DNA from: Acorus gramineus
Taxonomy: Eukaryota > Streptophyta > Magnoliopsida > Acorales > Acoraceae
Direction of reading: 5' to 3'
DNA: 64,000 bases
NCBI GenBank assembly: GCA_030737835.1
Contig: JAUJYN010000036.1
Span: 1,054,001 to 1,118,000, forward strand
The translations under genes and the position numbers were made by a program. Below are positions 3,996 to 62,762 of this stretch, piece by piece. Under the pieces are notes generated by a model, which was not told the DNA's origin, searched no databases, and saw only the letters and a list, made by a program, of their open reading frames with translations. Position 1 is the first letter of the stretch; every line of letters begins with the position of its first letter.

Positions 3996-5677
3996 ACCAT
4001 CCCCTGCTAAGATACATATCATCCCTAACATTTTCCACTCCAATGATTCATCTCCCCTACAACGTTTCAATTACTATTATTAATGAATCCATCACTTCAT
4101 TTTCTTAGCCACCCCTTGTTATGCCTGTGTAATTTGAAATCATTTCGGTTAAGCCTTGGTCACATCTGGGTCATTCAGGGCCTTTTTATTTTCCGATCGG
4201 AGTCGCTAAAATTTTTGGCTTTTAGCTACCCGCGGGAGTTAGAGTACTCTGATTGAAAATCTAACTGCATATTATGGGTCCTAGTACTGTTTCATACTAC
4301 CCATAAAAATTTCATCGAATTCTGGTAACGTTTTGAAAAATATGCAGTTCCGAACCATATCCGGGTTTTGAGAGTTCCTGGTTGGTCGAATAGTGTGAGA
4401 TATTTTGAGGATGTGGTGACCTTTGGTAACCTTACCCCCACCTTGCTTAGTGATGAAGAAACCATTGGTCTTTTGGTATGTGAGTGGGTGAGCCTAACCC
4501 TAACCTCACCACCCCCCTTATGGTCACCCCTAGACATTATTTGGGCATGAAAATGACCTTTTTGCCCTTTCTCTCTCTCCCCCTCTCTCCCATTTCGTGG
4601 AACACCTTCTCTCCCTCTCTTGGTCTCTTTTTTTCTCCTCTTTGTGTGTGAAGGAGGAGGAAGAAGCAATTGAAGGAAAAGATGAAGAAGAAGCACAAGA
4701 AAGAGTGAGAAAGGGTGAGTATGTGTTGTTGTTGTTGTTGTTTCTCTTCTCTCTATCCCCTTCTCATGCCCCTTTTGCACTCCTGTTTTCTGCCATGAAG
4801 GGCTTAAGGAGATGCTGATGAGGTAGTTGTAGTGGTGGTGGTGGTTGAGGTGGTCGTGGGTGTGTCGAGAACCCCGCATCTCCCCATTCCCCTCCCCTTG
4901 TTTTGGTAAGGCAGCACTCTGTATTTTAAAGATCTCAGTGAATCTAGTATTTAGAGGCACATTTCTAGGATTATGTCTTCATATGATATGATCATCTATG
5001 TGTCTAGTTGTTATATATGAAATTTGGGGTCATTATGATATCTGTGGTGTAAGTTAGAACCTGTTTTGCATGGCCTATCCAGATTCACGTAGGAATTGAC
5101 CTGCTTCTGGAAATAATTTATTTCGGGCTTGTAGAAGCAAAATTAGGTTCTAATGTCTTCATGGATTATGATCCCAGCATATCAGAGAATGTGCATGTTT
5201 TATTTCATAATGTTTGAAAGTGTATTCGGTGCTGTAGAGATCAATTAGTAGGGCTGGTTGCAGCAGTTTTGGTAGTTTTGCTTGGTTGAGTGTCAAGGAG
5301 TTGTTTGCATGTGTCTTGGATGATAATATGGAAGTATCAGGGGTTAGGGTCTTCATGAAGTAGGCTTATATGTGTGATAGGAGGTTCCATATTTTAATTG
5401 TGGATCATTGGTTGTGTTTTGCAGATCTCGTAGACCGGACGCGCGATGATCCGGGGTATCTGTGAGTGGTTTGATCCAATCCCCCAACTTCGAGATGCGC
5501 TTGACGCGTGTAGTCGTGCGTCGTGCATTGATGGGGCATCCTAGCTATACTACTTGTGTAGATAAGTAGTATGGCCATGTTTAAACTATAATATATTATA
5601 TATTTTTCATGCTAGGCTTATATTGAATGTATTGTATCCATGTATGAATGATTGTATCGCATGCGCCCCTCTAGTAT

Positions 5678-8600
5678 TGTCACGCCCCAGGGCGGCCGTC
5701 CCCGGGACGCGGCAAGTGTATATATAATATCAGAATCTACACAGGAGGTCAATAATATATCATACACAAACAACCAGAATGACACACAGACAACAAAGAG
5801 GCTGACATGATATATACACCAAATGCGGAAGCAAAAGACTGAATCTGTAAATAAACATACTACAGACTCGATACTCAATCATCTGTCCTGTGAGAGCCAA
5901 TATACACAAATACAACTGAATATATACAAACGCGTGCCAAGCACGGAAATAAAATACATACAGCCAAGAAGGGATGCTGATAGCCTCTGGCACTCGCGGA
6001 ACGTAGCGCTGCTCCGCTACTGAAGGAAACCCTCGGAAAGCTCCTCTCGCTGCTCCGACTCCGGCTCAGTGGCAACTGGGGAAAAACATATGCAAGGGGT
6101 GAGCCACACGCTCAGTGAACAGCACAACCCATGCATCACAGACAATATTGACCACAATTCAGATCTTAAAAATCCACAATCTCTTATTAACAACCACAAA
6201 ATGGTAACAAATACTCAAACCAGTGGGTCGCTCAATCACCAACCCGCTACACCCTCACCCTCACCCTCACCCTTCAATGGGTGACTTAGGATTTTGGGAC
6301 TGATATTCATCCAATCACAACACCAATGGGTCGCTCATCGCCAACTCACTACACCCTCACCCTCACCCTACAATGGGTGACATAGGATTTTGGGACTGAC
6401 TAGGCTGTTGGTCACCCTTGGTCCACCGATAGTCTCTCCTCCACTCCGTAGGCCGCTTGGCTTTCACCCACAACTTCAGCACAGTCCGTCACAAATATCA
6501 GGAGGCGCCTACTGATGGGAGCCTTCACCCACAACTTCAGCACAGTCCGTCACAAATATCGGGAGGCACCTATTGATGGGGGAGCCCTCGGAAGGGACGG
6601 CCTTTCTAACGTTGGGGCAGCCTCTACCGGATCCAACGAAGGGGACAGAACAGCCTATCCATACGCATATGATCCACTCAGATCCGCCGACAACGCATCT
6701 CTACAATTCTAATGTCATGAATTCTTCAAAATTCCTCTAGGGCGCATAACCAAGATGCGGGGAAAATTTATAATAATAGCAAGGTTGGAATATCATTGGG
6801 GGAAAGAAACTTGGGAGGGCAGCGTGAGTTCCCGATATAGGACGCCCCGACAACCAAACAATGAACACGGAGTACCCTAGCCCGGGTCTCACCGCTGTCC
6901 TCGCAAGGCCCCTCCTCTATAATATTCACTAAGATGCTAATAATCATACAAGGGGGGTAAATCATTAATTATCAACTAGAGATATAATATTATTGGGACA
7001 AGAACCTTGGAAGGGCAGCATGAGATCCCGATACAGGACATCCCGACAACCAAACAAGGAACACGGAGTACCCTAACCCGGGTCTCAATGTTGACCTCGC
7101 AAGGCCCCTCCCTATAATATTACCTAAGGCATGCAATTAAACATATACTAGCATTTAACTTAATAAATAAACTAGTGGGAAACATGCATAGGCCAAGGCT
7201 TCCTAGCATGAGAACAAGGGGGACATGATGCATGGCTCATACACATATCCTAAGGGTGCAAGTCCCTAACATGCAACGTCTAGGGTAGCATACATTCTAC
7301 GTTTTAAAATCATGCTCGCATGAAATACACTTTACAACAGGTTAATATAAATCCATGGTGCCCCAGGAGAGGTCGGTATACGCCCAAATGCATATAACGC
7401 CTCTCTACTGGGTTGGATTGTCCCACTCACCGAAAATCGGGTCGTCGCGCGACCGCCCGTCAAGATCTGCAAGACAGACATTTATACGGTGAATTAAATA
7501 CACAAATACATCAAAATACTCAAAATACACCGAAAGAACCCAACACTCGGGCAAACGTACATACGACCCGTATGCACGCCAGCCCGAGCACCCCGACACA
7601 CTCCCGAACCCACGGCAACCACCCGCACGGCCACCCGCCCCGTGGACGCGCCGTCACGCCTCAGCCCGCGCACCTAGGCGCACCGCCGGCCCCTTGCCCG
7701 CACGCCTGGACCCGCAGCCGAGCCACCCGGTGCGCCGCGCGCCCACTGCGCCCCGCCGCAGCAGCCCGCGCGCACCCCGTACGCCCCGCGCGCACCACAC
7801 GAGCACACCGCACGCCCCGCGCGCACCACCAGCTCTGTCCCGCGCGCACTCCGCGTGCACCACCAGCCTCTACCCGCGCGCACGCCTGCCTCTGCCCAGC
7901 GCCCTGCGCGCATGCTCCTCTGCAGTGCCCAGCGCCCAGCGCCCCAGCGCCCAGCGCTCAGCACCCTCGCCCAACACCCGGTATCCGCGACCCAGCGCCC
8001 GACGCTCAGCGCCCAGCACCCAGGACCCTCACAAAGCATCCACGCGCACGCCGACGCAACACGCGCACAGCGCGCCTGCCAGCCTGCCCGCGCTGCTGCC
8101 CACGCTGCCTGCCTGCGCGCATCGCCGAGTGGCCCGAGCACCGCTCGCCTGCACGCCTGGGCACTGCCCGCCTGATGCCCGAGCGCCCCCTGCCAGCTGC
8201 CCGAGCATGGCCTGCCCAGCCGGCCCGCCCTGCTCGCACAGCCCGCAGCCATCCTACCCCGCACTAGCCCTACCCAGCGCGCCCAGCACGCCTGCAGCAC
8301 CACCCGAGCGCACGCCGCGCGCACGCACTTGTGCGCCCGGCCACCTGGTGCCCCAGCCTGCTGCGTCCGCTGCCAACCCTCCCGGGACAGCCACCCAACC
8401 TGCCCGGCCTGCAAGCCTCCCTGCCCGAGCTCCTCTACCACCCACCCACCGGCCACCCCAAGGCCTCCGACCACTACCCACGGCCCTCCGACAGCCACCC
8501 ACCGCCGCCGACCGCCTCCCAACCTCAAACCAACCTCCTAACATACATCTATACAAGAAAAGAGAGGAAAAAGAGGCTTACCAAGGGGAGGAAGGGAAGT

Positions 8601-9045: not shown

Positions 9046-9061
9046 TTCTTCCCCCCTTAGG
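9046..9061 (-). other. Tek-1 polypurine tract
   Basis: On the minus strand the sequence CCTAAGGGGGGAAGAA directly abuts the 3' LTR. This is the plus-strand primer site expected for LTR retrotransposons, and Tek-2, Tek-3 and Tek-4 have the same type. Confidence 0.85.
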
Positions 9062-9109
9062 AAATTTTGTCCTCAAAATATGCAAAAACATCTAGGAGGG
9101 GAAAAGATG

Positions 9110-11895: not shown

Positions 11896-14800
11896 TGTCA
11901 CGCCCCAGGGCGGCCGTCCCCGGGACACGACAAGTGTATATAAAATATCAGAATCTACACAGGAGGTCAATAATATATCATACACAAACAACCAGAATGA
12001 CACACAGACAACAAAGAGGCTAACATGATATATACACCAAATGCGGAAGCAAAAGACTGAATCTGTAAATAAACATACTACAGACTTGATACTCAATCAT
12101 CTGTCCTGTGAGAGCCAATATACACACATACAACTGAATATATACAAACGCGTGCCAAGCACGGAAATAAAATACATACAGCCAAGAAGGGATGCTGATA
12201 GCCTCTGGCACTCGCGGAACGTAGCGCTGCTCCGCTACTGAAGGAAACCCTCGGAAAGCTCCTCCCGCTGCTCCGACTCCGGCTCAGTGGCAACTGGGGA
12301 AAAACATATGCGAGGGGTGAGCCACACGCTCAGTGAACAGCACAACCCATGCATCACAGACAATATTGACCACAATTCAGATCTTAATAATCCACAATCT
12401 CTTATTAACAACCACAAAATGGTAACAAATACTCAAACCAGTGGGTCGCTCAATCGCCAACCCACTACACCCTCACCCTCACCCTTCAATGGGTGACATA
12501 GGATTTTGGGACTGACTAGGCTGTTGGTCACCCTTGGTCCACCGATAGTCTCTCCTCCACTTCGTAGGCCGCTTGGCTATCACCCACAACTTCAGCACAG
12601 TCCGTCACAAATATCGGGAGGCACCTACTGATGGGAGCCCTCACCCACAACTTCAGCACAGTCCGTCACAAATATCGGGAGGCACCTATTGATGGGAACC
12701 CTTGGAAGGGACGGCCTTTCTAACGTTGGGGCAGCCTCTACCGGATCCAACGAAGGGGACAGAACAGCCTATCCATACGCATATGATCCACTCGGATCCG
12801 CCGACAATGCATCTCTACAATTCTAATGTCATGAATTCTTCAGAATTCCTCCAGGGCGCATAACCAAGATGTGGGGAAAATGTATAATAATAGCAAGGTT
12901 GGAATATCATTGGGGGAAAGATACTTGGGAGGGCAGCGTGAGTTCCCGATATAGGACGCCCCGACAACCAAACAAGGAACACGGAGTACCTTAGCCCGGG
13001 TATCACCGCTGTCATCGCGAGGCCCCTCCCCTATAATATTCACTAAGATGCTAATAATCATACAAGGGGGGTAAATCATTAATTATCAACTAGAGATATA
13101 ATATTATTGGGACAAGAACCTTGGGAGGGCAGCATGAGGTCCCGATACAGGACATCCCGACAACCAAACAAGGAACACGGAGTACCCTAACCCGGGTCTC
13201 AATGTCGACCTCGCAAGGCCCCTCCCTATAATATTACCTAAGGCATGCAATTAAACATATACTAGCATTTAACTTAATAAATAAACTAGTAGGACACATG
13301 CATAGGCCAAGGCTTCCTAGCATGAGGACAGGGGGGACATGATGCATGGCTCATACACATATCATAAGGGTGCAAGTCCCTAACATGCAAAGTCTAGGGT
13401 AGCATGCATTCTACATTTTAAAATCATGCTCGCATGAAATACACTTTACAACAGGTTAATATAAATCCATGGTGCCCCAGGAGAGGTCGGTATACGCCCA
13501 AATGCGTATAACGCCTCTCTACTGGGTTGGATTGTCCCACTCACCGAAAATCGGGTCGTCGCGCGACCGCCCGTCAAGATCTGCAAGACAGACATTTATA
13601 CGGTGAGTTAAATACACAAATACATCAAAATACTCAAAATACACCAAAAGAACCCAACACTAGGGCAAACGTACATACGACCCGTACGCACGCCAGCCCG
13701 AGCACCCCGACACACTCGCGAACCCACGACAACCACCCGCACGGCCACCCACCCCCCCGACGCGCCGCCGCGCCTCAGCCCGCGCACCTAGGCGCACCGC
13801 TGGGGCCCTGCCCGCACGCCTGGACCCGCAGCCGAGCCACCCGGTGCGCCGCGCGCCCACTGCGCCCCGTCGCAGCAGCCTGCGCGCACCCCGCACGCCC
13901 CGCGCGCACCACCAGCTCCGCCCCGCACGCACTCAGTGCGCACCACCAGCCTCTACCCGCGCGCACGCCTGTGCCTCTGCCCAGGGCCCCGCGCGCATGC
14001 TCCTCTGCAGTGCCCAGCGCTCAGCACCCTCGCCCAGCACCCGGTATCCGCGACCTAGCGCCCGACGCTCAGCGCCCAGCACCCGGGACCCTCACCCAGC
14101 GTCCACGCGCACGCCCGCGCAACACTCGCCCAGCGCGCCTGGCAGCACGCGCCCAGCGTGCCTGCCAGCCTGCCCGCGCTGCCTGCCTGCGCGCATCGCC
14201 GAGTGGCCCGAGCACCGCTCGCCTGCACGCCTGGGCACTGCCCGCCTGATGCCCGAGCGCCCCCTGCCAGCTGCCCGAGCATGGCCTGCCCAGCCGGCCC
14301 GCCCTGCTCGAACAGCCCGCAGCCATCCTACCCCGCACTAGCCCTACCCAGCGCGCCCAGCACGCCTGCAGCACCACCCGAGCGCACGCCGCGAGCACGC
14401 CTGCGCGCAAGCACTTGCGCGCCCGGCCACCTGGTGCCCCAGCCTGCTGCGCCCGCTGCCAACCCTCCCGGGACAGCCACCCAACCTGCCCGGCCTACAA
14501 ACCTCCCTGCCCGAGCTCCTCTACCACCCACCACCGGCCTCCCCAAGGCCTCCGACCACCACCCACAGCCTTCGACGGCCACCCACCGTCGCCGACCGCC
14601 TCCCAACCTCATATCCCACTCCTAACATACATCTATACAAGAAAAAGAGAGGAAAAAGAGGCTTACCAAGGGGAGGAAGGGAAGTCCGGTTGCTCTCCGC
14701 ACACCGAAACCTCTCCCAAAAGGCTTCCAACTCCCGGATCTCTCTCGGACTTCGAAATGGCCCAAATCAGGGAAGAAGAGAGGGGGGATGGAGGGGCCAA

Positions 14801-15917: not shown

Positions 15918-18900
15918 TGTTATGCCTGTGTCATTTGGAGTGCTCGGATTGAAAAAAAATAGGCTACAAATTTTTTTCTCCTAGAAGTTATGTATTTCCA
16001 ATTTGGTATTTGGATTTGATTTTGTTAAAATCCAAGATGGAGAGATTTAAATATGATTTTATTATGAGATGCTCAGTTTTGAGTTATCTTTCATACAAAA
16101 GTGGAATTAGGTCAACTGGATTCATGTAGTAAAAGTTATGGGTATTTTTCCAAGTATACCCCGGGGAGAACAATTCTGACAACAGCCCTATTCAATGTTT
16201 AGCTCACAATTGCGGAATAGCTTGAGAGATTATTTGATCTTGGCATAAACATGAAAGTTGTAGATAATCTTCTTGGCTTTCCAGCGGACTTTGAATTGTG
16301 CAATTCGGAGCTATATTGAGGAAGTTATGGCTGTTCTAGTAAAGCATGTACAGAATTTCTAGTCAAGGACGAATAGGTCATTTCTATCCCTCTTTTAGAT
16401 ATTTATTTGCCCAAAATATCTCTCTCTCTCTCTCCCTCCCACTCCCCACGTCAGTTTCTTGGCTCTCTCTTCTCTCTTTCACACACACCCCCCATGTGTT
16501 TGTATTAATTCCCCAAAGAGAAGAGAAGGAGAAGGTGCAAGTGCAAGAAAAGTTTTGTGTAAGTGTTGTTGTAGTTGTTGATCTCCCCTCTCTCAAGCAC
16601 CTTTTCATGAACTCCCCCCCCCCCCCGATTTTCAGCCAAGAAGGAGGCTGAGGAGGCTGAAGAGGTGGTGGTGGTGGTGGTGGTGGTTGAGGTGGTCGTG
16701 GGCGCGTCGAGAGCCCCGCATCTCCCCCTTTCCGTTTCCCTCTTTTGGTAAGTCCTCTTCCCCTTCTTTTTGATTTTTAGGGCTATTGGGATGGTTGGGG
16801 AGGTCATGCATGCTAGGTAGATGAGTTAGAGTGTGTGTGGGGGGTTGGGGAGGGTTAAAAAGAGGTAAAGGTTGTCTGCGCGCGTGCGCGCGCAGGCGCG
16901 CTCGCAGAAGGGCGTTGGCAGGCGCAGGCAGGTGCGCAGACGCGCGCGGGCGCGTGCGTACGAGCCCGCGGGTGCACGCGGGCACTGGAGCGAGCGGGGG
17001 TGCGTGCGGACGCGCGCGGGGCAATGCGCCTGGGCGTGCGTCTGGGCGCGGGGCTGCGGGCCAGTGTGAGCACGCGTGCAGGGGCATGCGCGGGGATGCC
17101 CACGGTCTCGGGTAGGTGCTGGGGCACCCGGGCATGCGTGCGTACGCGCGTGCTCGCATGCGTGCGAGCCTGTATACGTGCATGTCTAAGTCTTCGGTAT
17201 TTCTAATGATTTCTAAGTGTTACCTTGCAGATCTCGTCGGATGGGATGTGCGAGGTCCCGGGTTGTATGGTGAGTGGTTCGATCCAATCCACCCCCCCCC
17301 CCACCCCTCTCAGGATGCACTCGACGCGCGTAGACGCGCGTCGCGGATCGATGGAGCCCCTTAAGCTATAATATATAGATATCTTGCATGCTAGGCTTAT
17401 ATACATGTATTGTATTCATGTATGAATGATTGTGTTGCATGAGCCCTTCTAGTATGGGCATGTATGTTGTAAATGTGTATGGATGTATAGAATATGGCAT
17501 GTCTTAGGTAGTATTGTAATACTACTCCCACCATATTAATGGGAATATACAGTATGATTAAGTCTGGGTTAATAACGGGTACCTGCCTGATATTCCCTTG
17601 CGATAAGACTCGAGGGCGTGGTGTAGCTGTTGCGCCCATGCTAATGGGGCAAAGCTATGACCAGCTTCATGTGATGATGATCTCTCTCGCCCTCCCCCTC
17701 TGAATGAACTGAGTAAGTAGAGGCGATTTCCTACTCGACTCAGGTTCGTTTGGAATATTGGCATGCACCTGTTAGTGCGCAAGATCGCGCTTGACCCTTT
17801 CTTTTAAGTTGGCGATATCCAACGGATATTAGAGTATATTTTGTATGTTTATGTGATTAATGACCATGTATGCATGTTGTATGATTTATTATGATGTAAA
17901 TATATGATTAGGGAGTGTCCCTATGATTAATTGATATGTGATCGTGCATATGGTTCATGCACCCAACTAAGATTAATTTCTCCTCTAAAATATATGCGCA
18001 TGTTAAAACTAATTAGGCCTATCTGAAATAGGCGTGGGTATGACCCGCTGTCGGGTTGTACCTTATTAGTTAGAGCGCTAGCGATGAAATCGCCCGTGCA
18101 TCCGAGCGATGCACTCGTTTGGAATTCAGGAGGATTCGTTATCTTAACGATTTGTTAAGCCGGTAGTTGGGGCGTGTCTGAGCGACGCAACGGTGTGGGA
18201 GTACAGTAGCTATTCGATATCTTGATAAGTGATTATCGAGAGTAGTTGTTTTCCATTGGGTTCGCTTTGCGAATATGGAATGTTTACTCCCAATGTCATT
18301 CGTGTTGAGGGGGCCCGGGTTGTAGCTGTCCTGACAGAGGGCTCCCATCCATAAGTATCACCGATGCATTCGGGAGTGTACTGATCGTGGGAGTATACCA
18401 GGTAGAGGCTACCCGGGAGACGGTTAACGAATGATATTGCAAAGTAGTTGTTTTCCATTGGGATCGCTTTGCGAACATGGAATGTTTACTCCCAATGTCG
18501 TCCGTGTTGAGGGGGCCCGGGTTGTAGCTGTCCTGACAGAGGGCTCCCATCCGTAGGTACCACCGATGCATTCGGGAGCATAATGATCGTGGGAGTATAC
18601 CAGGCAGAGGCTACCCGGGAGAGGGTTAACGAATGATGTTGCGAGCGTGGGATCGTTCTCCCCTTCGTTGGATCCGATGTAGGGACTCCCCGGTGATTAC
18701 AGCTGTCCTGACAGAGGGCTCCCATCCGTAGGTACCACCGACGCGTTCGGAAGCGTACTGATTGTGGGAGTATACCAGGTAGAGGCTACGCGGGGGAAAG
18801 GGCTACCGGTGGACCAAGGGTGTAGAGCAGTCTAAGTCTCTTCCAAAAGTCCTATGTCACCTCTAAGGGGGTGAGGGTGAGGATGAGGTGAAGACACATC

Positions 18901-19647
18901 GCCGTGTGACCCATTCGTTGTTCGTCCATTCCCATAGTTGTTGGGTCCGGTTGTGTATCGATGTTGAAAGACATCGTTGGGCGGTTAACTCGATGTAGAT
19001 GATCCAGTAGTGTTGTGTAGACCAGTAATCCCGGGTCTCCTCGACCAACGGTATGGTCTCTCCCCAAAAGTCCCAAGAGTCTCCCTCCGGGAGTGAGGGT
19101 GAGGGTGAGGTTGGTCGCGCTGCTGCGTGACCCTGTTATCCATGGGTTTCCACCCATGTTTTCCTTGAAAGGAAAGTGCTTATGTATTGAACTGTTGTAT
19201 GGTGATTGGTTTCCAGCCACTCACTGAGCTTGTAGCTCACCCCTCGCATACTGTTTCTTTTTAGGGGCAGTGTTGGGCGTGGAGTTGGAGCTTCCCTGTG
19301 GCGTGGTCTTATGGGCGTGGAGCGTTCTTCCGACGGGTGGCGAGTGCGAGGCTGTTAGTAGTCCTAGAGTCATTGTATGTATTGTAAATCGTGCATGTGG
19401 CACAGGTTGTATTTTCTTTGGTCTAGACTTGGCTCTCACAGGACAATGATTGTGTATTCGAGTCTGTAATAATGTTTTTGATTTACAGACATTGTTTATA
19501 TATTATGCTTCCGCTTTTCAGTCAGTTATCATTATCCTTGCTTTGCCACCTTGTGTATTGTTGTTGGAGTCTTTATTGACCTCAGGTATTGATAGCTGAT
19601 ATTTTATTATTGCCACGTCTCGGGGACGGCCGCCCTGGGGCGTGACA
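15918..19647 (+). repeat. Tek-2 5' LTR
   Basis: Runs from TGTTATGCC to GGGGCGTGACA. Features in order: pyrimidine-rich leader with CT repeats (about 16420-16480), donor TTTTGGTAAGT (GT at 16748), GC-rich tract rich in CGCG (about 16868-17190), acceptor CTTGCAG (ending 17230), second donor GTGAGT (17270), three tandem copies of a 'gggctcccat...taccaggtagagg' unit (about 18300-18800), GGGTGAGG repeats (18868-18882, 19084-19111), second acceptor TTTTTAG (ending 19264), and a 3' hairpin (19460-19490). Confidence 0.92.
18300..18800 (+). repeat. Tandem triplication inside the Tek-2 5' LTR
   Basis: Three diverged units, each holding 'agctgtcctgacagagggct', 'cccatccgtaggtaccaccga' (here or with a small change) and 'accaggtagaggctac', are spaced about 150-210 bp apart. 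The 3' LTR has the same arrangement at about 24870-25320, with small deletions. Confidence 0.8.
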
Positions 19648-22390: not shown

Positions 22391-25300
22391 TGTTATGCCT
22401 GTGTCATTTGGAGCGCTCTTATTGGAAAAAAAATAGGCTACAATTTTTTTTCTCTTAGAAGTTACGTATTTCCGATTTGGTATTTGGATTTGATTTTGTT
22501 AAAATTCAAGATGGAGAGGTTTAAATATGATTTTATTATGAGATGCTCAGTTTTGAGTTAGCTTTCGTACAAAAGTTGAATTAGGTCAACTGGATTCATG
22601 TAGTAAAAGTTATGGGTATTTTTCCAAGTATACCCCGGGGATGAAAAATTCTGGCAGCAGCCCTGTTCAATGTTTAGCTCACATTTCGGAATAGCTGAAG
22701 AGATTATTTGATCTTGGCATAAACATGAAAGTTGTAGATAATCTTCTTGGCTTTCCAATTGACTTTGAATTGTGCAATTCGGAGCTATATTGAGGAAGTT
22801 ATGGCTGTTCTAGTGAAGCATGTACAGAATTTCTAGTCAAGGACGAATAGGTCATTTCTATCCCTCTTTTAGATATTTATGTGCCCAAAATATCTCTCTC
22901 CCTCTCTCCCTCCCACTCCCCACGTCAGTTTCTTGGCTCTCTCTTCTCTCTTTTCACCCCCTCCCCCCAAGTGTTTGTGTTAATGTCACAAAGAGAAGAG
23001 AAGGAGAAGGTGTAAGTGCAAGAAAAGTTTTGTGTAAGTGTTGTTGTAGTTGTTGATCTCCCCTCTCTCAAGCACCTTTTCATGAACTTCCCCCCCCCCT
23101 GATTTTCAGCCAAGAAGGAGGCTGAGGAGGCTAAAGAGGTGGTGGTGGTTGAGGTGGCCGTGGGCGCGTCGAGAGCCCCGCATCTCCCCCTTTCCGTTTC
23201 CCTCTTTTGGTAAGTCCTCTTCCCCTTCATTTTGATTTTTAGGGATATTGGGATGGTTATGGAGGTCATGCATGCTAGGTAGATGAGTTAGAGTTTGTGT
23301 GAGGGGTTGGGGAGGCTTAAAAAGGAGTAAGGGTTGGCTGGGCGCGCGTTTGGGGTTGTCTCCGCGCGTGCGCGCGCAGGCGCGCCCGTAGAAGGGCGCT
23401 GGCAGGCGCAGGCGAGCACGCAGGCGAGCACGCAGACGCGCGCTGGCGAGTGCGCGCAAGCGGCGGGTGCGCGCGGGCGCTGGCGCGAGCGGGGGTGCGC
23501 GCGAGGAGTGTGCGCGAGTGTGCGCGGGGGGCAGTGCGCCTGGGCGTGCGTCTGGGCGCGGACTGGGGACCAGTGCGCGCGTGCGTGCGCGTGCTGCGGC
23601 ATGCGCGGGGCTACCCAAGGTCTCAGGTAGGTGCTGGGGCACCCGAGCATGCGTGCGTACGCGCGTGCTCGCATGCGTGCGAGCCCGTATGCGTGCATGT
23701 CTAAGTCTTTGGTATTTCTAATGATTTCTAAGTGTTAAATTGTGATGTTACTCACCAAATTTGATGCCCCTACCTTGCAGATCTCGTCGGATGGGATGCG
23801 CGAGGTCTCGGGTTGTATGGTGAGTGGTTTGATCCAATCCCCCCCCCTCGGGATGCGCTCGAAGCGCGTCTACGCGCGTCGCACATCGATGGGGCCCCTT
23901 AAGCTATAATATGTAGATATCTTGCATGCTAGGCTTATATACATGTATTGTATTCATGTATGAATGATTGTGTTGCATGAGCCCCTCTAGTATGGGCATG
24001 TATGTTGTAAATGTGTATGGATGTATAGAATATGGCATGTCTTAGGTAGTATTGTAATACTACTCCCACCATATTAATGGGAATATACAGTATGATTAAG
24101 TCTGGGTTAATAACGGGTACCTGCCTGATATTCCCTTGCGATAAGACTCGAGGGCGTGGTGTAGCTGTTGCGCCCATGCTAATGGGGCAAAGCTATGACC
24201 AGCTTCATGAGATGATGATCTCTCTCGCCCTCCCCCTCTGAACGAACTGAGTAAGTATAGATGATTTCCTACTCGACTCAGGTTCGTTTGGAATATTGGC
24301 ATGCTCCTGTTAGTGCGCGAGATCGCGCTTGACCCTTTCTTTTAAGTTGGAGATATCCAACGGATATTGGAGTATATTTTGTATGTTTATGTGATTAATG
24401 ACCATGCATGCATGTTGTATGATTTATTATGATGTAAATATATGATTAGGGAGTGTCCCTATGATTAATTGATATGTGATCATGCATATGGTTCATGCAC
24501 CCAACTAAGAATAATTTCTCCTCTAAAATATATGCACATGTTAAAACTAATTAGCCCTATCTGAAATAGGCGTGGGTATGACCCGTTGTCGAGTTGTACC
24601 TTATTAGTTAGAGCGCTAGCGATGAAATCGCCCGTGCATCCGAGCGATGCCCTCGTTTGGAATTCAGGAGGATTCATTATCTTAACGATTTGTTAAGTCG
24701 GTAGTTGGGGTGTGCCACCCCCCTTTGTGTCTGAGCGACGCAACGGTGTAGGAGTACAGTAGTATTCTATATCTCGATAAGTGATTATCGAGAGTAGTTG
24801 TTTTCCATTGGGTTCGCTTTGCGAACATGGAATGTTTACTCCCAATGTCATCTGTGTTGAGAGGGCCCAGGTGTAGCTCTCCTGACAGAGGGCTCCCATC
24901 CGTAGGTACCACCGATGCATTCGGGAGCGTACTGATCATGGGAGTATACCAGGTAGAGGCTACCCGAGAGAGGGTTAACGAATGATATTGCAGAGTAGTT
25001 GTTTTCCATTGGGATCGCTTTGAATGTTTACTCCCAATGTCGTCCGTGTTGAGGTTGTAGCTGTCCTGAGAAAGGGCTCCCATCCGTAGGTACCACCGAT
25101 GCATTCGGGAGCGTACTGATTGTGGGAGTACACCAAGTAGAGGCTACCTGGGAGAGGGTTAACGAATGATGTTGCGAGCGTGGGATCGTTCTCCCCTTCG
25201 TTGGATCCGATGTAGGGACTCCCCGACGATTACAGCTGTCCTGACAAAGGGCTCCCATCTGTAGGTACCACCGACGCGTTCGGAAGTGTACTGATTGTGG

Positions 25301-42627: not shown

Positions 42628-42636
42628 TATTTAAAG
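42628..42636 (+). promoter_or_regulatory. TATA-like box of the Tek-4 5' LTR
   Basis: TATTTAAAG, repeated at 51578-51586 in the 3' LTR. It lies about 25-35 bp upstream of the conserved CTATTCATCATC motif, the likely transcription start region, since the same motif follows a TATA-like box in Tek-1 (14990-14981). Confidence 0.55.
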
Positions 42637-42669
42637 TGAAAGCTAAAAGGTTCCTCACTATTCATCATC

Positions 42670-43543
42670 GGGCGCGTCTATCCCCACCCATCGTTTTTCT
42701 TACCCCACCAATCAAAAAAAAAAAAATGGTGTTTGGCTGTTCCCACCAATCCAGATCGACCGAAATTGATCGTCATTTCAGATTTTAGACGACCGGACTT
42801 GGTCGCCATTTCAGGTTTTGGGCGACAGTAATTGGTCGCAATTTTAGGCTTTGGGCGACTGTAATTGGTCGAACAGGGTTCAAAATTATATCTACCTATT
42901 TTTTTGTAAACAAATAAATTTTTGGGTTTATCCATCATATTCTACTTCTATTCTTTGATCCAAACAACAGCTAAGGGGCCGAAAAAAATGTAAGTAAGTA
43001 TACTTTCAATTAATTCAAATTTTTATAAAAAAATATCTTATTAGACAAATATATATCATTTTTAAGCTTCGTGTGAATTCGTAGTTAAGAGGATTCTTGG
43101 TTTGAAAACAAAAAAACATATCAGTTGATCCAAACACATTATATATTTGGCTTTTGAAAATTAGTCCGTCACTTATGTAAAAAAAATTGTTCTTATATTC
43201 TACATTTAAGAATAATAACTGATTCTCCTTACATTACAACTCAGACTTGAAGTGGTATGAAGGATTCAAGGAAGATATACGTCATGGGATTATGTTTCCA
43301 AGAAAAATAATTATAAACTTTATTACAAATCCTGTTCGACCAAGTTCGGTCGTCCGAAACCTGAAATGACGACCAAGTCCGGTCGCCCAAAATCTGAAAT
43401 GGCGACCAAGTCCGGTCGTCCAAAACCTGAAGTGGCGACCAAATCTGGTCGACCTGGCCGGATCGGTGGGAAAAGATAAAACACCGATTTTGTTTTTCGA
43501 TTGGTGGGGTAAGAAAAACCCTCGGTGGGGATAGCCGTGCCCT
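42670..43543. mobile_element. Mutator-like MITE with about 200-bp inverted repeats
   Basis: 874 bp, absent from the 3' LTR copy of the same site (51619). Both sides carry the 9-bp duplication TTCATCATC (42661-42669 and 43544-43552), the length typical of Mutator-like elements. Ends are GGGCGCGTCTATCCCC and, on the other strand, GGGCACGGCTATCCCC. The terminal repeats (about 42670-42876 and 43330-43543) contain tandem 33-bp units with GACC(A/G)..TTGGTCG motifs. No transposase is encoded, so it is non-autonomous. Confidence 0.93.
43330..43455. repeat. 33-bp sub-terminal tandem repeats of the MITE
   Basis: About four units, each with CGACCAAGTCCGGTCG or a variant followed by 'aaaacctgaaatgg'-type sequence. 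The matching left inverted repeat has fewer and more diverged units (42757-42870). Confidence 0.85.
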
Positions 43544-46227
43544 TCATCATCTTCTCCCTTGGAATTTCTCTCTCCCCACTCTCTCTTTTTCTTAGTTTTG
43601 AGCCACCTAGGGTGCTTGAAGCTTAAAACCCAAAACATAGAAAGGTTAGATCCGGTCCCGATCTACACCCCGGTGTTTTCGGATTCGAATTCCAAGGTGT
43701 TTAGCCCCTTCTCCCCCTCTCTTTTCTCCCCTGATTTGAGCCATTTCGAAGGCTAGGGAGGAGCTCGGCGGTGTAGGTCTTTGGAGAGGTGTTTCGGTGC
43801 CCGGAGAGCAACTGAACTTCCCTTCCTTCCCTTGGTAAGCACTTTTTCCTTTTTTTTTTTTTTGGCTTAGATGCTTGTTAGGAGGGTGGTTTTGGGGTTG
43901 GGTGGTGGTCGGCGGCTGTGGGTGGCTGTAGGTGGTGGTTGGGAGGTGGTTGGAGGCCATGGGTGGCCGGTGGGTGGTGGAAAGGAGCTCGGGCAGGGAG
44001 GTTGGCTGTCTCGGCCAGTAGGCAGCACAGGCAGGCGCAGCAGGCGTGCAGTGGCAGAGCGCGAGCACGCGGGCGTGCGCTCGGGCGGCGTGCTGGGCGC
44101 TGGGCGTGCTGGGTGTGCTGGGCGAGGGTGCTGGGCGTTGGGCGCTGAACACCGTGCAGGAGCATGCACGCGGGGCGCTGGGCAAGGGCGCAGGCGTGCG
44201 CGCGGTGAGGAGAGCAGTGGGTGCGAGCGGGCGGGTGCGCGTGCGGGGCGCTGCGCTGGGGCACAGTGCGCACGGGTGCACCCGGGGCTTGGCGAGCGGC
44301 TGGTGGAAGGATGATGCGCGTGGTGGTGCGCGCGGAGTGCGCGCGGGGGTAGGCGCGGGGCGCGGGCCGTGCGGGTGTGCGCGCGGGTTGCTGCGCTGGG
44401 GCGCAGCGAGCGCGCGGTGCACCCGGGGTGATCCGGCAGGGAGTCCGGGCGTGCAGGCTGGGCTCGGCAGTGCACCTGGGCGCGCGGGCCGGGGCTCGGC
44501 TGTGCGCCCGGGGCGGGTGGCCGTGCGAGCGGCTGCCCGGGGAGTTCGGGAGTGAGCCGGGGTGCTCGGGCTCGCGTGCGTACGGGCCGTATGCACGTTC
44601 GCCCGAGTGTTGTGTATTTTTAGAGTATTTTTGTTGTATTTGTGGATTTTACTCACTAAGTTGATAACCTGTCTTGCAGATCTTGACGGACGGTCGCGCA
44701 ATGACCCGACTTCAGGTGAGTGAGACAATCCGACCCAGTTGGGAGGCGCTATACGCACTTGGGCGTATACCGTCCTCCCCTAGGGCACCATAGATTAATA
44801 TTAACCTGTTTAATATGTAATCCATGCAGCATGATTGATATGTAGTATGCATGCTACCCTAGACTGAGTATGTTAGGGACTTGCACCCTTAGGTTGTGTA
44901 AGAGCCATGCATCTTGTCACCTTGTTATCATGCTAGGAAAGCCTCGGCCTTTGTATGCTCCTATTAGTTTAATTTGTTAAATTAAATGCAACTGGTAATA
45001 TTATTGCATGCCTTAGGGAATATTAAGGGGCCTTGCGAGGTCAACATTGAGACCCGGGCTAGGGTGCTCCGTGTTCCTTGTTTGGTTGTCGGGACGTCCT
45101 ATATCGGGACCTCATGGTGCCCTCCCAAGGTTTCTTTTCCCGTCTATATTAATGCATGTTCCCCGCATCTTGGTTATGCGCCCTGGAGGAATTCGGATGA
45201 ATTCAAGACACTAGAGTTGTAGAGATGTGTTGTCAGCAGATCCGAGTGGATCATATGCGTGTGGGTAGGCTGTTTCTCTCCCCTTCGTTGGATCCGTGTA
45301 GGGACTCCTCAGCATAGACAGACTATCCTGACAGAGGGCTCCCATCAGTAGGCACCTCCTGATCTTGGACTCGGACTGTGCCGAATGTGGGAGTAGACCA
45401 GGCACTAGCAGGCTATCCTGACAGAGGGCTCCCATCAGTAGGCACCTCCTGATCTTGGACTCGGACTGTGCTGAATGTGGGAGTAGACCAGGTAAGCTAC
45501 GGTGTGGAGGAGAGGCTATCGGTGGACCAAGGACGATTAACAGCCTAGTCAGTCCCAATATTCTTTGTCACCTGTTGAGGGGTGAGGGTGAGGGTGAGGG
45601 TGTATGGATGTGTATGGATGTGTATGGATGATTATAAGTCCCAATATCCTATGTCACCTATTGAGGGGTGAGGGTGAGGGTATGGTGGTTCGGCGATGTA
45701 CGAACCACTGGATTTATGTTGTTATGCCACTTTGAGGCTAGTTGTTATTAATTGTGGTTAATATATCTGTGATGCATGGGTTGTGCTGTTCACTGAGCGT
45801 GTGGCTCACCCCTCGCATAATATTTTTTCCAGTGATTACTGAGGAGGACTTGAAGGAGGAGCTCCCTGAGCGACTGCACCAGTAGCGGAGTAGCGCTACG
45901 TCCCGCGAGTTTCTGAGGCCATCAGCATCCTTCCTTTTCTGTATGTATATATTTCTGTGCTTGGGCACCCAGTTTGGATTATATTTGGATGTATGTGTGT
46001 ATATTGGCTCTCACAGGACATTTGATTTGTATCGAGTCTGTAGTATGTTTTTGGATTACAGACTCAGTCTTTTAGCTTCCGCTTTGTGTATATATTATGT
46101 CAGCCTGCTTTGTATCTGTGTTGTCTTTATAGTGTTGTATGAGTATTGATTGAACTCCTGTTTTTACTGATATCATATATACACTTGCCGCGACCCGGGG
46201 ACGGCCGCCCTGGGGCGTGACAAAAGT

Positions 46228-46239
46228 TGGTATCAGAGC
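46228..46239 (+). other. Tek-4 primer-binding site (initiator tRNA-Met)
   Basis: TGGTATCAGAGC, 5 nt after the 5' LTR. Confidence 0.93.
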
Positions 46240-46342
46240 CTGGTCCTGTCAGAGCCAATTGTCTTCTTTTTCGTAGAGATGAGTCCTAGGATTTCTATAT
46301 GAGTATTCTGATCCTAGTGTCTGGTTTTCTTAGGTTGCTGAT

Positions 46343-51175: not shown

Positions 51176-54100
51176 TGTTATATATGTGTCACTTTTTGCC
51201 TTCTGGTAACCATTGGAGCATTTTGGCAGTTTTTGAGTTTTTTTCATTTTTTGATCGGAACAGTAAAATTTTGGACTGTTAGCTATCGTCCTGTGTTTGA
51301 GGACTCTGATTGAAAATCTAACTGCATATTATGTGTCCTGGTGCCATTCTAAGCCACTCACAAAAATTTCATCGAATTCCGGTAACGTTTCCGAAATTTC
51401 ACAGTTCCGGGGCGTATCCGGGTTTTGACCGAGCGAGAAGTCATTGGGAGAGTTGACTCGGTCAAAGTGGGCCCATGACTTGGTCAACCCTTTTTGTTTT
51501 TTTGTGTGGTTGGGTTGACCCAAGTCAAATCCCACTTAATTAATCTTGTTTACCCTAATTCAAGTGAGTGTTGACTTATTTAAAGTGAAAGCTAAAAAGG
51601 TTCCTCACTATTCATCATCTTCTCCCTTGGAATTTCTCTCTCCCCCCTCTCTCTTTTTCTTAGTTTTGAGCCACCTAGGATGCTTGAAGCTTAAAACTCA
51701 AAACATAGAAAGGTTAGATCCGGTCCCGATCTACACCCCGGTGTTTTCAGATTCGAATTCCGAGGTGTTTAGCCCCTTCTCCCCCTCTCTTTTCTCCCCT
51801 GATTTGAGCCATTTCAAGGGCTAGGGAGGAGCTCGGCGGTGGAGGTCTTTGGGGAGGTGTTTCGGTGCGCAGAGAGCAACTGAACTTTCCTTCCTTCCCT
51901 TGGTAAGCTCTTTTTCCTTCTTTTTTTTTTTGGCTTAGATGCTTGTTAGGAGGGTGGTTTTGAGGTTGGGTGGTGGTCGGCGGCTGTGGGTGGCTGTAGG
52001 TGGTGGTTGGGGGCGGTCGGAGGCCATGCATGGCCTGTGGTTGGTGGTAGAGGAGCTCGGGCAGGGAGGTTGGTTGTCTCGGGCAGCAGGCAGCACAGGC
52101 GCAGCAAGCAGGCGTGCAGTGGCAGGGCGCGCGCGGGTGTGCACTCAGGCAACGTGCTGGGCGCTGGGCGCTGGGCGTGCTGGGTGCGTTGGGCGTGCTG
52201 GGCGAGGGTGCTGGGCGCTGGGCGCTGAGCACCGTGCAGGAGCATGCGCGCGGGGCGCTGGGCAAGGGCACAGGCGTGCGCGCGGTGAGGAGAGCAGTGG
52301 GTGCGAGCGGGCGGGTGCGTGTGCGGGGCGATGCGCTGGGGCGCGGTGTGCACGGGTGCACCCGGGGCTGGGCGAGCGGCTGGTCGAAGGATGATGCGCG
52401 TGGTGGTCCGCGCGGACCATGCGGGTGTGCGCGCGGGTTGCTGCGCTGGGGTGCAGCGAGCACGCGATGCACCTGGGGTGATCCGGCAGGGAGTCCGGGC
52501 ATGCAGGCTGGGCTCGGCAGTGCGTCGGGGCGCGCAGGCCGGGGCTCGGCTGTGCGCCCGGGGCGGGTGGTCGTGCGAGCAGCTGCCCGGGGAGTTCGGG
52601 AGTGAGCCGGGGTGCTCGGGCTAGCGTGCGTACGGGCCGTATGTACGTTTGCCCGAGTGTTGGGTATTTTTAGAGTAGTTTTGGTATATTTGTGGATTTT
52701 ACTCACCAAGTTGATACCCTGTCTTGGAGATCTTGACGGACGGTCGCGCGACGACCCGATTTCCTGTGAGTGGGACAATCCAACCCAGTTGGGAGGCGCT
52801 ATACGCACTTGGGCGTATACCGTCCTCCCCTGGGGCACCATAGATTAATATTAACCTCTTAAATATGTAATCCATGCAGCATGATTGATATGCAGTATGC
52901 ATGCTACCCTAGGCTGAGTATGTTAGGGACTTGCACCCTTAGGTTGTGTAAGAGCCACGCATCTTGTCACCTTGTTATCATGCTAGGAAAGCCTCGGCCC
53001 TTGTATGCGTCCTATTAGTTTAATTTGTTAAATTAAATGCAACTGGTAATATTATTGCATGCCTTAGGGAATATTAAGGGGCCTTGCGAGGTCAACATTG
53101 AGACCCGGGCTAGGGTGCTCCGTGTTCCTTGTTTGGTTGTCGGGACGTCCTATATCGGGACCTCATGGTGCCCGCCCAAGGTTTCTTTTCCCGTCTATGT
53201 TAATGCATGTTCCCCGCATCTTGGTTATGCGCCCTGGTGGAATTCTGATGAATTCAAGACATTAGAGTTGTAGAGATGTGTTGTCAGCGGATCCGAGTGG
53301 ATCATATGCGTGTGAGTAGGCTGTTTCTCTCCCCTTCGTTGGATCCGTGTAGGGACTCCTCAGCATAGACAGACTATCCTGACAGAGGGCTCCCATCAGT
53401 AGGCACCTCCTCATCTTTGACTCGGACTGTGCTGAATGTGGGAGTAGACCAGGTAAGCTACGGTGTGGAGGAGAGGCTATCGGTGGGCCAAGGGTGATTA
53501 ACAGCCTAGTCAGTCCCAATATCCTATGTCACCTGTTGAGGGTGAGGGTGAGGGTGTATGGATGTGTATGGATGGGTTTGGATGATTATAAGTCCCAATA
53601 TCCTATGTCACCTATTGAGGGGTGAGGGTGAGGGTATGGTGGTTCGGCGATGTAACGAACTACTGGATTTATGTTGTATGCCACTTTGAGGCTAGTTGCT
53701 GATTAATGGTGGTTAATATGATCTGTGATGCATGGGTTGTGCTATTCACTGAGCGTGTGGCTCACCCCTCGCATAATTATTTTTCTCCAGTGATTACTGA
53801 GGAGGACTTGAAGGAGGAACTCCCTGAGCGACTGCACCAGTAGCGGAGTAGCGCTACGTCCCGCGAGTTTCTGAGGCCATCAGCATCCTTCCATTTTATT
53901 GTATGTATATATTTCTGTGCTTGGGCACCCAGTTTGGATTGTATTTGGTTGTATGTGTGTATATTGGCTCTCACAGGATATTTGATTTGTATCGAATCTG
54001 TAGTATGTTTTTGGATTACAGACTCAGTCTTTTAGCTTCCGCTTTTGGTGTATATATTATGTCAGCCCTGCTTTGTAGTCTGTGTTGTCTTTATAGCTGT

Positions 54101-54188: not shown

Positions 54189-55451
54189 CACGCAACGATC
54201 CGGGTTTCTGTGAGTGGGACAATCCAACCCAGTAGGGAGGCGTTCGATGCACGTAGGCGTGCATTGCCCTCCCCTGGGGCACCATAATTGTGTATTAACT
54301 TGTGATAAATGTAAAACTATGCAATGCATGATTAATATGATGTAACCATGCCACATTAGACTTTGTATGCTAGGGATATGCACCCATATATCATGTATAG
54401 AGGCCTATGCATGCCTAGACACCATGTCCCTTGATTGGAAAGCCCCGAACTATGTATGTTCCCATCTAGTTTAATCTAATTAAATCAAAATGAGAGCATA
54501 TTGTTATAAGCATGCCTTAGAGAATATTATAACCTTGTTGTTATAATATATGTTTCCCCGCATCTTAGTTATGCGCCCTGGAGGAATTCTTGAGAATTCA
54601 TGACATTATTAGTGTTACAAATCGTTGTCGACGGATCCAAGAGGATCGTATCCGTGTGAGTAGGCTGTCTTCTCCTTTTGGTTGGATCCGATGTAGGGAC
54701 TCCCCGGCGTTGGAAAGCTGACCTGACAGAGGGCTCCCGTCCGTAGGTACCTCCGATGCGTCGGACAGTACTGATAGTGGGAGTATACCAGGTAGAGGCT
54801 ACGGAGTGTGGGAGAGGCTACCGGGTGGACCAGGGGTGGAGAGCGGTCTAGTATGCCCCAAGAGGCCCATGTCACCCCTTAAAGGGTGAGGGTGAGGGGG
54901 GGGTGGGTTGGCGATGAAACGACCCACTAGATTGTGTAGTTGCTCCCGTTTAGGGACTATAAATTATTTAAGGTTAATATGAATTGTGATGCATAGATTG
55001 TGCCATTCACTGAGCGTGTGGCTCACCCCTCGCATATTCTTTTCCTCCAGTTATATCTGAGTCGGATCTGAAGGAGGAGCTCCCCGAGGCACCACAGCAG
55101 TAGCGGAGCAGCGTCACTTTTGGGTTCTGCGAGTGAGAGGCCATCAGCATCCCCTTCTTGATTGTATGTATTGTTATCCGTGCTTGGGCACACACTTGTA
55201 TTTGGATGTCATTGTGTATATTGGCTCTCACAGGACAGTTGATTATGTATTCGGGTCTGTAATGTCTTTGAATTACAGACTCAGTCGTTTAAGCTTCCGC
55301 TATTTGTATATATTATGTCAGCTACCTTATTGTCTGTGTTGTCATTTTCGATGTTGTTTAGAGTATTTTATTGATCTCCTGTATAGACTGCTGATATTAT
55401 ATATATATTTGCCACGTATCGGGGACGGCCGCCCTGGGGCGTGACAAAAGT

Positions 55452-60381: not shown

Positions 60382-62762
60382 TGTTATATATGTGTCACTT
60401 TTAGCCTTCTGGTCACCTTTGGGACATTTCTGGCAGTTTTTCAACTTTTTCTTTTTTTCGATCGGAACCGCTAAAATTTTTGACTTTTAGCTATCATCAT
60501 GAGCTTGAGAACTCCGATTGAAAATCTAACTGCACATTATGTGTCCTGGTGCCATTTCAAACCACTCACGAAAATTTCATCGAATTCCGGTAACGTTTCA
60601 GAATTTGGCAGTTCCAAATCGTATCCGGGTTTTGACCGAGTGGGAATGTCAAAGGGGGGACTTGACCAAGTCAAAGAAGACTTGGACCAAGTCAAATTGA
60701 CCATTGACTTGGTCAAATGGTTTTGTTTTTTTGTGTGGTTGGGTTGACTCAAGTCAATCCCCACAAAACCTAATTGTTCCAAGTGTGTGAGTGTGTGTGT
60801 GTGTGTGGGTCACTAGACTTGGGCGTCCACCCCTATTTCCCCTTCTCTTCATCTCTCTCTCTCTCTCACACAATCCATCACTCCCTCTTCTTATTTGCTT
60901 CCATTAGGGGTAGTAGAAGAAGAAGAAGAAGAAAACCCTAGAAGGGAAAAAGAAAGGTAAGGGTGTGATCTATCTTTGTATGGTTTTTGTTTTGATTTCC
61001 CCTTTCTTTACCTCCCTCTCATGGCTTCCCCTCCCCCCCTGTTTCAGCCATTGTTAGGGCTGGAGAGTGGCTGAGGTGGTGGTGGTCTTGGTGGTCGCGG
61101 TTGTGGTGGTTTGGTGCGCGAAGGGCACCCGAGCTTTCCCCCTTGTTCTTCCTCTCCTTGGGTAAGTCTTACTCCTCCCCTAGCTTGGTTAGATGTTTGA
61201 TTAGGAGGTTTAAATGGTTATGCATGCTATGCATGGGTGTTGGGGGGTGTGGGTGGGCTGAGGAGGGGGTGGAAGGGGCTCGGGTGATGGCCAGTCGGGC
61301 GATGGCCCGCGCAGGCGTGTGCGCGCGCGTACGCGCAGACGCGCGGGCGTGCGCCCGGGTACGCGCTGGGCTGGACGTGCGGTGCGCGCGGGCGCGCGCG
61401 GCAGCGCGTCTGGGCAGGGGCGCAGGGGTGCGTGCGTGCGTGCACATTCGTACGTGCGCGTGCAGGGGGCCATGCGTATGGCTGCCCGAGGGTTCGGGAG
61501 GGTGTCGGGGCACTCGGGCTCGCGTGCGTACGCGCGTGCTCACATGCGTGCAAGTCCGTACGCATGCTTGTCCGAGTATTGGGTATTTCTAGTAAATTTC
61601 TTATGTATTTGTGTAGTTTACTCACCATATTGAGTGCCCATGTTTTGCCGATCTTGACGGACGGTCACGCAACGACCCGGGTTTTGGTGTGTGGAACAAT
61701 CCAACCCAGTAGGGAGGCGTTCGATGCACTTAGGCGTGCATTGCCCTCCCATGGGGCACCATAATTGTGTATTAACTATGATAAATGTAAAACTATGGAA
61801 TGCATGATTAATATGATGTAACCATGCCGCATTAGACTTTGTATGCTAGGGATATGCACCCATATATCATGTATAGAGAGGCCTTTGCATGCCTAGACAC
61901 CATGTCCCTTGATTGGAAAGCCTCGAACTATGTATGTTCCCATCTAGTTTAATCTAATTAAATCAAAATGAGAGCATATTGTTATAAGCATGCCTTAGAG
62001 AATATTATAACCTTGTTGTTATAATATATGTTTCCCCGCATCTTAGTTATGCGCCCTGGACTCCCCGGCGTTGGAAAGCTGACCTGACAGAGGGCTCCCG
62101 TCCGTAGGTACCTCCGATGCGTCGGACAGTACTGATAGTGGGAGTATACTAGGTAGAGGCTACGGAGTGTGGGAGAGGCTACCGGGTGGACCAGGGGTGG
62201 AGAGCGGTCTAGTATGCCCCAAGAGGCCCATGTCACCCCCGTAAAGGGTGAGGGTGAGGGGGGGAGGTGGGTTGGCGATGAAACGACCCACTAGAATGTG
62301 TAGTTGCTCCCGTGTTAGGGACTATAAATTATTTAAGGTTAATATGAATTGTGATGCATGGATTGTGCTATTCACTGAGCGTGTGGCTCACCCCTCGCAT
62401 ATTCTTTTCCTCCAGTTATATCTGAGTCGGATCTGAAGGAGGAGCTCCCCGAGGCAGCATAGCAGTAGCGGAGCAGCTTCACGTTTTGGGTTCTACAAGT
62501 GAGAGGCCATCAGCATCCCCTTCTTGATTGTATGTATTGTTATCTGTGCTTGGGCACACACTTGTATTTGGATGTCATTGTGTATATTGGCTCTCACAGG
62601 ACAGTTGATTATGTATTCGGGTCTGTAATGTGTCTTTGAATTACAGACTCAGTCGTTTAAGCTTCCGCTATTTGTATATATTATGTCAGCTACCTTATTG
62701 TCTGTGTTGTCATTTTCGATGTTGTTTAGAGTATTTTATTGATCTCCTGTATAGACTGCTGA
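60382..62762 (+). repeat. Tek-3 3' LTR, truncated in this window by Tek-5
   Basis: 2381 bp are visible; only the last about 50-60 bp lie beyond the Tek-5 insertion. The first 400 bp are almost identical to the 5' LTR. Differences: a (TG)n expansion (60785-60806), a shorter GC-rich tract (about 61280-61560), first acceptor CAG changed to CCG (61648-61650), second donor GTGAGT changed to GTGTGT (61687), and a 117-bp deletion at 62060/62061 (missing bases correspond to 54583-54699). Confidence 0.9.

Follow-up and report, generated by a model that had tools for sequence, protein, structure and literature searches.

The window analysed here is a 64,000-nt stretch of the Acorus gramineus genome (contig JAUJYN010000036.1, positions 1,054,001 to 1,118,000 of the forward strand) occupied by a nest of Ty3/Gypsy retrotransposons: four elements with internal regions (Tek-1 to Tek-4), two solo long terminal repeats (LTRs A and B) and, at the right edge, part of one further LTR. 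Our subject is a splice-site layout carried by these LTRs, which have TG...CA termini and measure 2.4-3.9 kb. A primer binding site, TGGTATCAGAGC, which we take to be of the initiator tRNA-Met type, is present in the four elements 5 nt past the LTR end, and was likewise found in the 14 copies in which this region was read. Pfam matches in pieces of Tek-4 include Retrotrans_gag (E = 2e-17), RVT_1 (3e-36), RT_RNaseH (2e-35) and H2C2 (2e-11), together with rve at 3e-5 (24.6 bits, under its cut-off of 32.6) and a weak match to Chromo (20.1 bits, E = 6e-4; curated cut-off 25.1). The domain order, gag and then reverse transcriptase (RT)-RNase H (RH)-integrase (INT), is that of the Tekay (Del) chromoviruses of the Ty3/Gypsy group. 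"Tekay" is used as a working label, not as a placement by RT/RH/INT phylogeny.

The layout is best followed in Tek-4, on the plus strand. Its 5' LTR (42206..46222; TG..CA ends, 5-bp flanking repeat CACGC, foreign insertion at 42670-43542) contains an intron 1 of 845 nt at 43835..44679, running from donor 1 (GTAAGC) to acceptor 1 (CTTGCAG), whose homologue is precisely absent in genomic copies described below. Exon 2, delimited by alignment and conservation, occupies 44680..44715 (36 nt, starting ATCTTGACGG). A candidate intron 2 of 1117 nt, proposed on the basis of conservation, follows at 44716..45832, from donor 2 (GTGAGTG) to acceptor 2 (TTTTCCAG). Beyond the LTR come the primer binding site, at 46228..46239, and an acceptor-like AG (CTGAT..TGGTTTTCTTAG) at 46332..46333, 9 nt short of the gag ATG (46343). 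In the 3' LTR intron 1 spans 51903..52729 and its acceptor now reads TTGGAG.

During reverse transcription, the R-U5 at the RNA 5' end is the source for both LTRs of the new element. If a spliced leader RNA were packaged, daughter elements would therefore be expected to lack the intron in both LTRs. A search of the whole genome (399 Mb in 137 contigs) for exon 1 joined to exon 2 returned 23 exact places, and the reversed-pattern control none. Exon 1 runs directly into exon 2 in all eight loci whose sequence accompanied the join search; 15 of the 23 distinct places were read, and all 15 proved to be true joins. A search that left the junction free (exon 1 word, 12-42 free bases, exon 2 word) gave 14 matches, again with none for the reversed control. 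Every one of the 14 is an exact join, CTTG/ATCT or CTTGG/ATCT, with no remnant of the intron; 11 were among the 23 places and three were new. Upstream exon 1 sequence was confirmed at 23 of the 26 distinct places, the other three being C8:17537042, C10:2317244 and C54:729620.

The intron-less searches covered exon 2 of the ATCTKGACGG type and, after one type of exon 1, any word preceding GACGGACGGTC. For the Tek-2-type join, the retrieved sequence yielded two regular-expression matches (up to three mismatches), both of them unspliced acceptors. Integrase matches were also tried as a source of further LTRs, and the first eight loci had no match to the window.

Three of the intron-less LTRs form pairs with a second one 5.1 kb away in the same orientation. 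On C2, the pair comes with a primer binding site, LTRs that both lack intron 1 and are 97.8% identical, and a target-site duplication (ACCAT). For the C78 pair, whose far end is badly delimited, identity is 98.7% over 2162 columns; in the third pair, on C54, the end of one LTR could not be located. Three other intron-less LTRs lie directly between 5-bp repeats (CAGAG, AGTAC and TGCAA), as solo LTRs do. Judged by these sequence hallmarks, the intron-less copies are insertions and not local deletions. A tree built from 56 leader pieces places the 15 intron-less rows in some 12 separate clades among intron-bearing relatives, adjoining Tek-1-like, Tek-3-like and LTR B/Tek-4-like copies. Support for nodes holding intron-less rows ranges from 67 to 100; the number of clades is approximate, since collapsing by support gave 12 at every threshold and probably collapsed nothing. 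Four mis-delimited rows out of 60 (LF_15922, LF_11334, RF_14551 and L016_153) had been removed beforehand.

The spacing of the intron-less pairs fits an interior about as short as that of Tek-1. The internal region of this element (9046-11895) measures just 2.85 kb and contains reading frames resembling gag, with no long one for pol; Tek-1 is probably non-autonomous.

The proposal of the first-pass annotation that these elements have a spliced leader is thus borne out for intron 1, which at least 23 confirmed genomic copies from several families lack exactly. Intron 1 is thus taken out of an RNA that goes on to be reverse transcribed. Given the rules of reverse transcription, its loss from both LTRs places it in R-U5, downstream of the start site; no AATAAA-type signal is common to all LTRs. 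On this evidence intron 1 is almost certainly real and conserved. The explanation that best accounts for the data as a whole, and that we consider very probable, is that the transcribed R-U5 leader of this group of Tekay-like Ty3/Gypsy chromoviruses harbours a spliceosomal intron, accompanied by a second donor that is presumably regulated. The splice from donor 1 to acceptor 1 joins the pyrimidine-rich leader that follows the presumed start (exon 1) to an exon 2 of 36-41 nt. An RNA relieved of intron 1 retains the primer binding site and can still be packaged and reverse transcribed, and the copying of R-U5 from its 5' end produces a daughter element with two intron-less LTRs.

The other LTRs of the window show the layout with variations. 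In Tek-1, on the minus strand, intron 1 lies at 13581..14666 in the 5' LTR (1086 nt), with candidate intron 2 at 12294..13544 (1251 nt), and at 7467..8581 in the 3' LTR (1115 nt). The remainder are on the plus strand. Solo LTR A has intron 1 at 4906..5424 (519 nt, GC 0.37, U 0.38) and exon 2 at 5425..5461 (37 nt), after which donor 2 (GTGAGTGG) comes at 5462. In Tek-2, intron 1 spans 16748..17230 in the 5' LTR (483 nt), where candidate intron 2 extends over 17270..19264 (1995 nt), and 23210..23780 in the 3' LTR (571 nt). Solo LTR B has intron 1 at 31530..32320, with GTGAGC as an exceptional donor 1, and candidate intron 2 at 32357..33196. In the Tek-3 5' LTR, intron 1 occupies 41618..42185 (568 nt), exon 2 is then broken by the insertion of Tek-4 (42206-54188), and candidate intron 2 is found beyond it, at 54210..55050 (841 nt). 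The Tek-3 3' LTR retains a remnant of intron 1 at 61162..61650; acceptor 1 is lost (CCG) and donor 2 is weakened to GTGTGTG. The GAG at acceptor 1 of the Tek-4 3' LTR is a further exception. Donor and acceptor positions listed in the first-pass annotation fall, within one base, on GT at 7/7 first donors and 6/6 second donors (LTR D left aside) and on AG at 6/6 first acceptors and 7/7 second acceptors, and they share alignment columns across the LTRs. The equivalents of donor 2 and acceptor 2 suggested for LTR D (30449 and 33931) had to be given up: they are isolated words, in an LTR with one 25-bp match and no useful similarity to the others.

Conservation was assessed on copies from the window, 60 kb of flanking sequence, 20 matches to a Tek-4 query and eight matches to a Tek-2 query, the fetched loci being the best 20 of 39 other places for the former and 8 of 42 for the latter. 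Among the aligned LTR copies, donor 1 has GT in 54/54 and GTRAG in 53, acceptor 1 has AG in 50/53, donor 2 has GT in 52/53 and GTRAG in 50, and acceptor 2 has AG in 54/55; these counts are not independent, because the loci were fetched from a best-match subset. One Tek-3-type LTR (copy RF_27104 of locus L033, minus strand) has lost donor 2 through a small deletion that spares acceptor 1 and the first part of exon 2. In 18 Tek-4-like copies (4 of 22 rows, L012, L015, L016 and L017, having been dropped) the four splice dinucleotides are intact throughout, against a background in the same LTRs of 100 fully intact GTs out of 259 and 79 fully intact AGs out of 177.

Comparison of the splice points with neighbouring bases in the family alignment agrees with the layout first proposed: the four dinucleotides are near-fixed and many adjacent bases are variable. 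In a profile in which near-identical rows were weighted, G/GT-R-AG at donor 1 approaches 2 bits, with neighbours mostly at about 0.5-1.2. Bases preceding donor 2 are low (0.15-1.1) and GTGAGTGG then starts abruptly; at acceptor 2, A and G reach 2.0 and 1.95 bits between two variable flanks. Acceptor 1 is blurred, one deviant row carrying heavy weight. This distribution of information content is the one that real splice sites show. Column permutation was carried out on six family representatives, with untrained splice-site weights, a site being scored as conserved at 6 bits or more in at least 5/6 representatives. It gave four conserved sense acceptors compared with a mean of 0.29, none of 500 permutations reaching four, and no conserved antisense acceptor; donor 2 escapes this test owing to alignment gaps.

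The original statement that the sequence between the splice points varies freely is partly correct. LTR A has an AT-rich intron 1 and the other LTRs have GC-rich ones, with the same bounding sites; against this, the LTRs contain 26 runs of at least five invariant columns, many of which are no splice sites.

Transcripts of LTR retrotransposons serve as both messenger and genome. Leaders here are 2-3 kb long and hold 49-91 upstream ATGs, and the route to gag therefore needs explanation. One alternative has both introns lying within the LTR (donor 1-acceptor 1 and donor 2-acceptor 2), yielding a three-exon leader that keeps the primer binding site. The AG of acceptor 2, retained in 54/55 copies with variable pyrimidines before it and a variable exon after it, speaks for this arrangement, as does a CTCAC word about 25-30 nt upstream. 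However, an RNA spliced in this manner would keep the primer binding site, and copies devoid of intron 2 would be expected. None was found in 359 kb of retrieved sequence, a sample partly selected through intron 1, with one mismatch allowed; counting duplicates, the same 359 kb contained 20 intron-1-less matches, all of them in loci that had been retrieved for that join. All 15 intron-1-less copies that were read continue past exon 2, with GTGAGTGG in 14 and ATGAGTGG in L053, and 11 of the 15 have acceptor 2 at 0.9-1.5 kb downstream, the other four lacking it in the stretch examined. Moreover, splicing from donor 2 to acceptor 2 would still leave 8-12 upstream ATGs. The three-exon leader is on balance rather unlikely. 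The multi-exon leader of the first-pass annotation stands as far as intron 1 is concerned; a second intron with acceptor 2 as its 3' end is no more than a suggestion from conservation. A coding exon following acceptor 2 (VITEEDLKEELP..) was considered and rejected by eye, being terminated by a stop and not kept in Tek-2.

Additional acceptor-like sites that are conserved, some towards the 3' end of the LTR and one ahead of the gag ATG, were overlooked in the first-pass annotation. The one ahead of gag follows the primer binding site and reads CTGAT..TTTTCTTAG/GTTGCTGATATG in the Tek-1, Tek-3 and Tek-4 types, with GGTGCTGATATG as the Tek-1 variant; the Tek-2 type has TTATCTTAG/GTTGCTGACATG instead. 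TTAG occurs in 14/14 copies read. Counted from 250 nt upstream of donor 1, ATGs preceding gag in Tek-1, Tek-2, Tek-3 and Tek-4 number 51, 91, 53 and 49 in the unspliced leader and 41, 80, 38 and 43 once intron 1 is removed. Splicing from donor 2 to acceptor 2 would bring them to 8, 12, 10 and 9, and the combination of donor 1-acceptor 1 with donor 2-gag acceptor to 0, 4, 2 and 1. The predicted donor 2-gag acceptor splice would also delete the primer binding site. The acceptor for donor 2 may be the site before the gag ATG rather than acceptor 2; from the sequence, splicing of donor 2 to the gag acceptor is a plausible event that we rate somewhat short of an even chance. In the families read, the stretch from the primer binding site to gag also contains a short upstream frame that begins ATGAGTC(C/G)TAGGATT (46279-46302 and equivalents) and would be lost on splicing to the gag acceptor.

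Donor 2 would thus act as a second, regulated donor, with the acceptor before the gag ATG as its likeliest productive partner. Use of this pair would take out what remains of U5 together with the primer binding site and almost every upstream ATG, giving a gag(-pol) mRNA for translation only, and RNA left unspliced at donor 2 would serve replication. The spliced product could be translated and not reverse transcribed, which would explain why intron-less copies exist for intron 1 only. We tentatively envisage the LTR as a two-step switch, in which intron 1 is optional in the replicating RNA and donor 2 decides whether an RNA is translated or copied. A conserved LTR intron with natural intron-less descendants offers a direct handle on this choice, as the copies record which RNAs were packaged.

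The donor and acceptor words might alternatively be kept for a promoter, a small-RNA target, packaging or RNA structure, with no functional splicing at donor 2 and acceptor 2. Non-splice blocks such as GGTGGACCA and CCCTCGCATA are indeed equally conserved. In contrast, conservation at donor 2 climbs at the GT, the exon side just before it being variable, and acceptor 2 is near-fixed at the AG only, with both sides variable. Such another function seems improbable, a little more so than the three-exon leader.

Several observations weigh against a spliceosomal intron 1 with a regulated donor 2. In the permutation analysis donors alone are weak, the proportion of permutations reaching the observed count going from 0.026 to 1.0 depending on the threshold. 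Many of the conserved LTR blocks, among the 26 invariant runs, are not splice sites. The window together with 60 kb of flanking sequence yielded 21 acceptor 1-donor 2 regions, none of them intron-less; intron-less LTRs are rare, and splicing of packaged RNA would therefore be infrequent. The exon 2-gag join has no match genome-wide, as expected if the primer binding site is lost and equally if there is no splicing. Finally, 9/10 window LTRs have an intron 1 that is rich in GC (0.63-0.71) and poor in U (0.19-0.24). U-richness is usual in plant introns, according to the excerpted text of PMC3735527, and among these introns only that of LTR A displays it (U 0.38, GC 0.37). Since such a composition is unusual for plants, intron 1 may be a weak, regulated intron.

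The LTR A intron bears on a further alternative, namely that the intron-less state is ancestral and some LTR lineages acquired the intron by insertion. The strongly divergent composition of this intron is compatible with insertion, and unordered parsimony (nine changes) leaves the direction unfixed. However, intron 1 can be aligned between the distant Tek-2 and Tek-3 (65% over a stretch of 713 columns that includes it), so that it predates the family split and is ancestral to both, with repeated losses, and Tek-2-type outgroup rows carry it; the insertion scenario is thus very improbable. Less credible still is the notion that a DNA deletion, between short repeats at the two intron ends, produced the intron-less LTRs: a single G common to both ends leaves the breakpoint ambiguous by one base, but 14/14 joins are exact under a free gap, exon ends come in two types (CTTG and CTTGG), about 12 separate clades are involved and both LTRs of one element, with flanking target-site duplication, are affected. 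As to LTR A itself, its intron 1 (4906-5424) has a TGTTATATATG word at 5009 that resembles the start of other LTRs here; the sequence would fit either an origin different from that of the GC-rich intron 1 of the other LTRs or far drift from it.

HTLV-1, like the foamy viruses, has a splice donor within its LTR, and in both the acceptor lies in the internal region. In foamy viruses the major splice donor is in R, downstream of the start, and serves to make leader-spliced mRNA; U1 binding at this donor also governs poly(A) choice (PMC3694450, in excerpt, as are the papers cited below). The Acorus elements differ from these viruses in having the whole intron and a second donor inside the LTR, and in that the spliced RNA has found its way back into the genome. 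Splicing is described for several plant LTR elements: Ogre, between two reading frames; BARE1 and EVADE, within gag-pol; Bagy2, for env; and CRR (PMC12786077, PMC6317226, PMC3735527). BARE1, a Ty1/Copia element of barley, resembles the present case in that splicing of a GT-AG intron separates RNA pools for translation and replication. Its intron, however, is a 104-nt segment of the coding region at the start of the pr domain, whose removal makes Gag only (PMC3735527), whereas here it is in the LTR leader of a Gypsy chromovirus. Ogre, of the Tat lineage of Ty3/Gypsy, is likewise a plant Gypsy element with a partly spliced intron (PMC6317226, PMC12786077). EVADE/ATCOPIA93 and sunflower Tyran and Varan produce separate gag RNAs through alternative splicing, yet these are shorter or truncated gag RNAs, and the excerpts describe no conserved LTR leader intron (PMC12786077, PMC7730604). 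Maize CRM1 provides an instance of RNA splicing in a plant centromeric retrotransposon; unlike here, it is a matter of back-spliced circular RNAs and not of a linear LTR leader intron (PMC7010299). Within the open-access literature, subscription papers being outside the scope of the survey, we found no account of plant Gypsy elements that have a conserved whole intron in the LTR leader and recurrent intron-less descendants.

Some additional features were observed. Past acceptor 2, LTR 3' ends (e.g., around 46010-46060) hold two more acceptor-like sites, TTGGCTCTCACAG and a T-rich TTACAG, with AG retained in 54/55 and 55/55 copies. A very strong donor-like CAGGTAAGC occurs within candidate intron 2 in both Tek-4 LTRs (45491 and 53452) and is absent from the other window LTRs. 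Tek-4 sits within exon 2 of the Tek-3 5' LTR, its insertion (42206-54188) being marked by a 5-bp duplication, CACGC, at 42201-42205 and 54189-54193. The insertion of about 870 bp in the Tek-4 5' LTR (42670-43542) has inverted arms of 78% identity and a 9-bp flanking repeat (TTCATCATC); by its structure it looks like a Mutator-type non-autonomous DNA transposon. Lastly, at 38338-39579 a 409-bp unit is repeated in tandem about three times, the copies being 98.8-98.9% identical.

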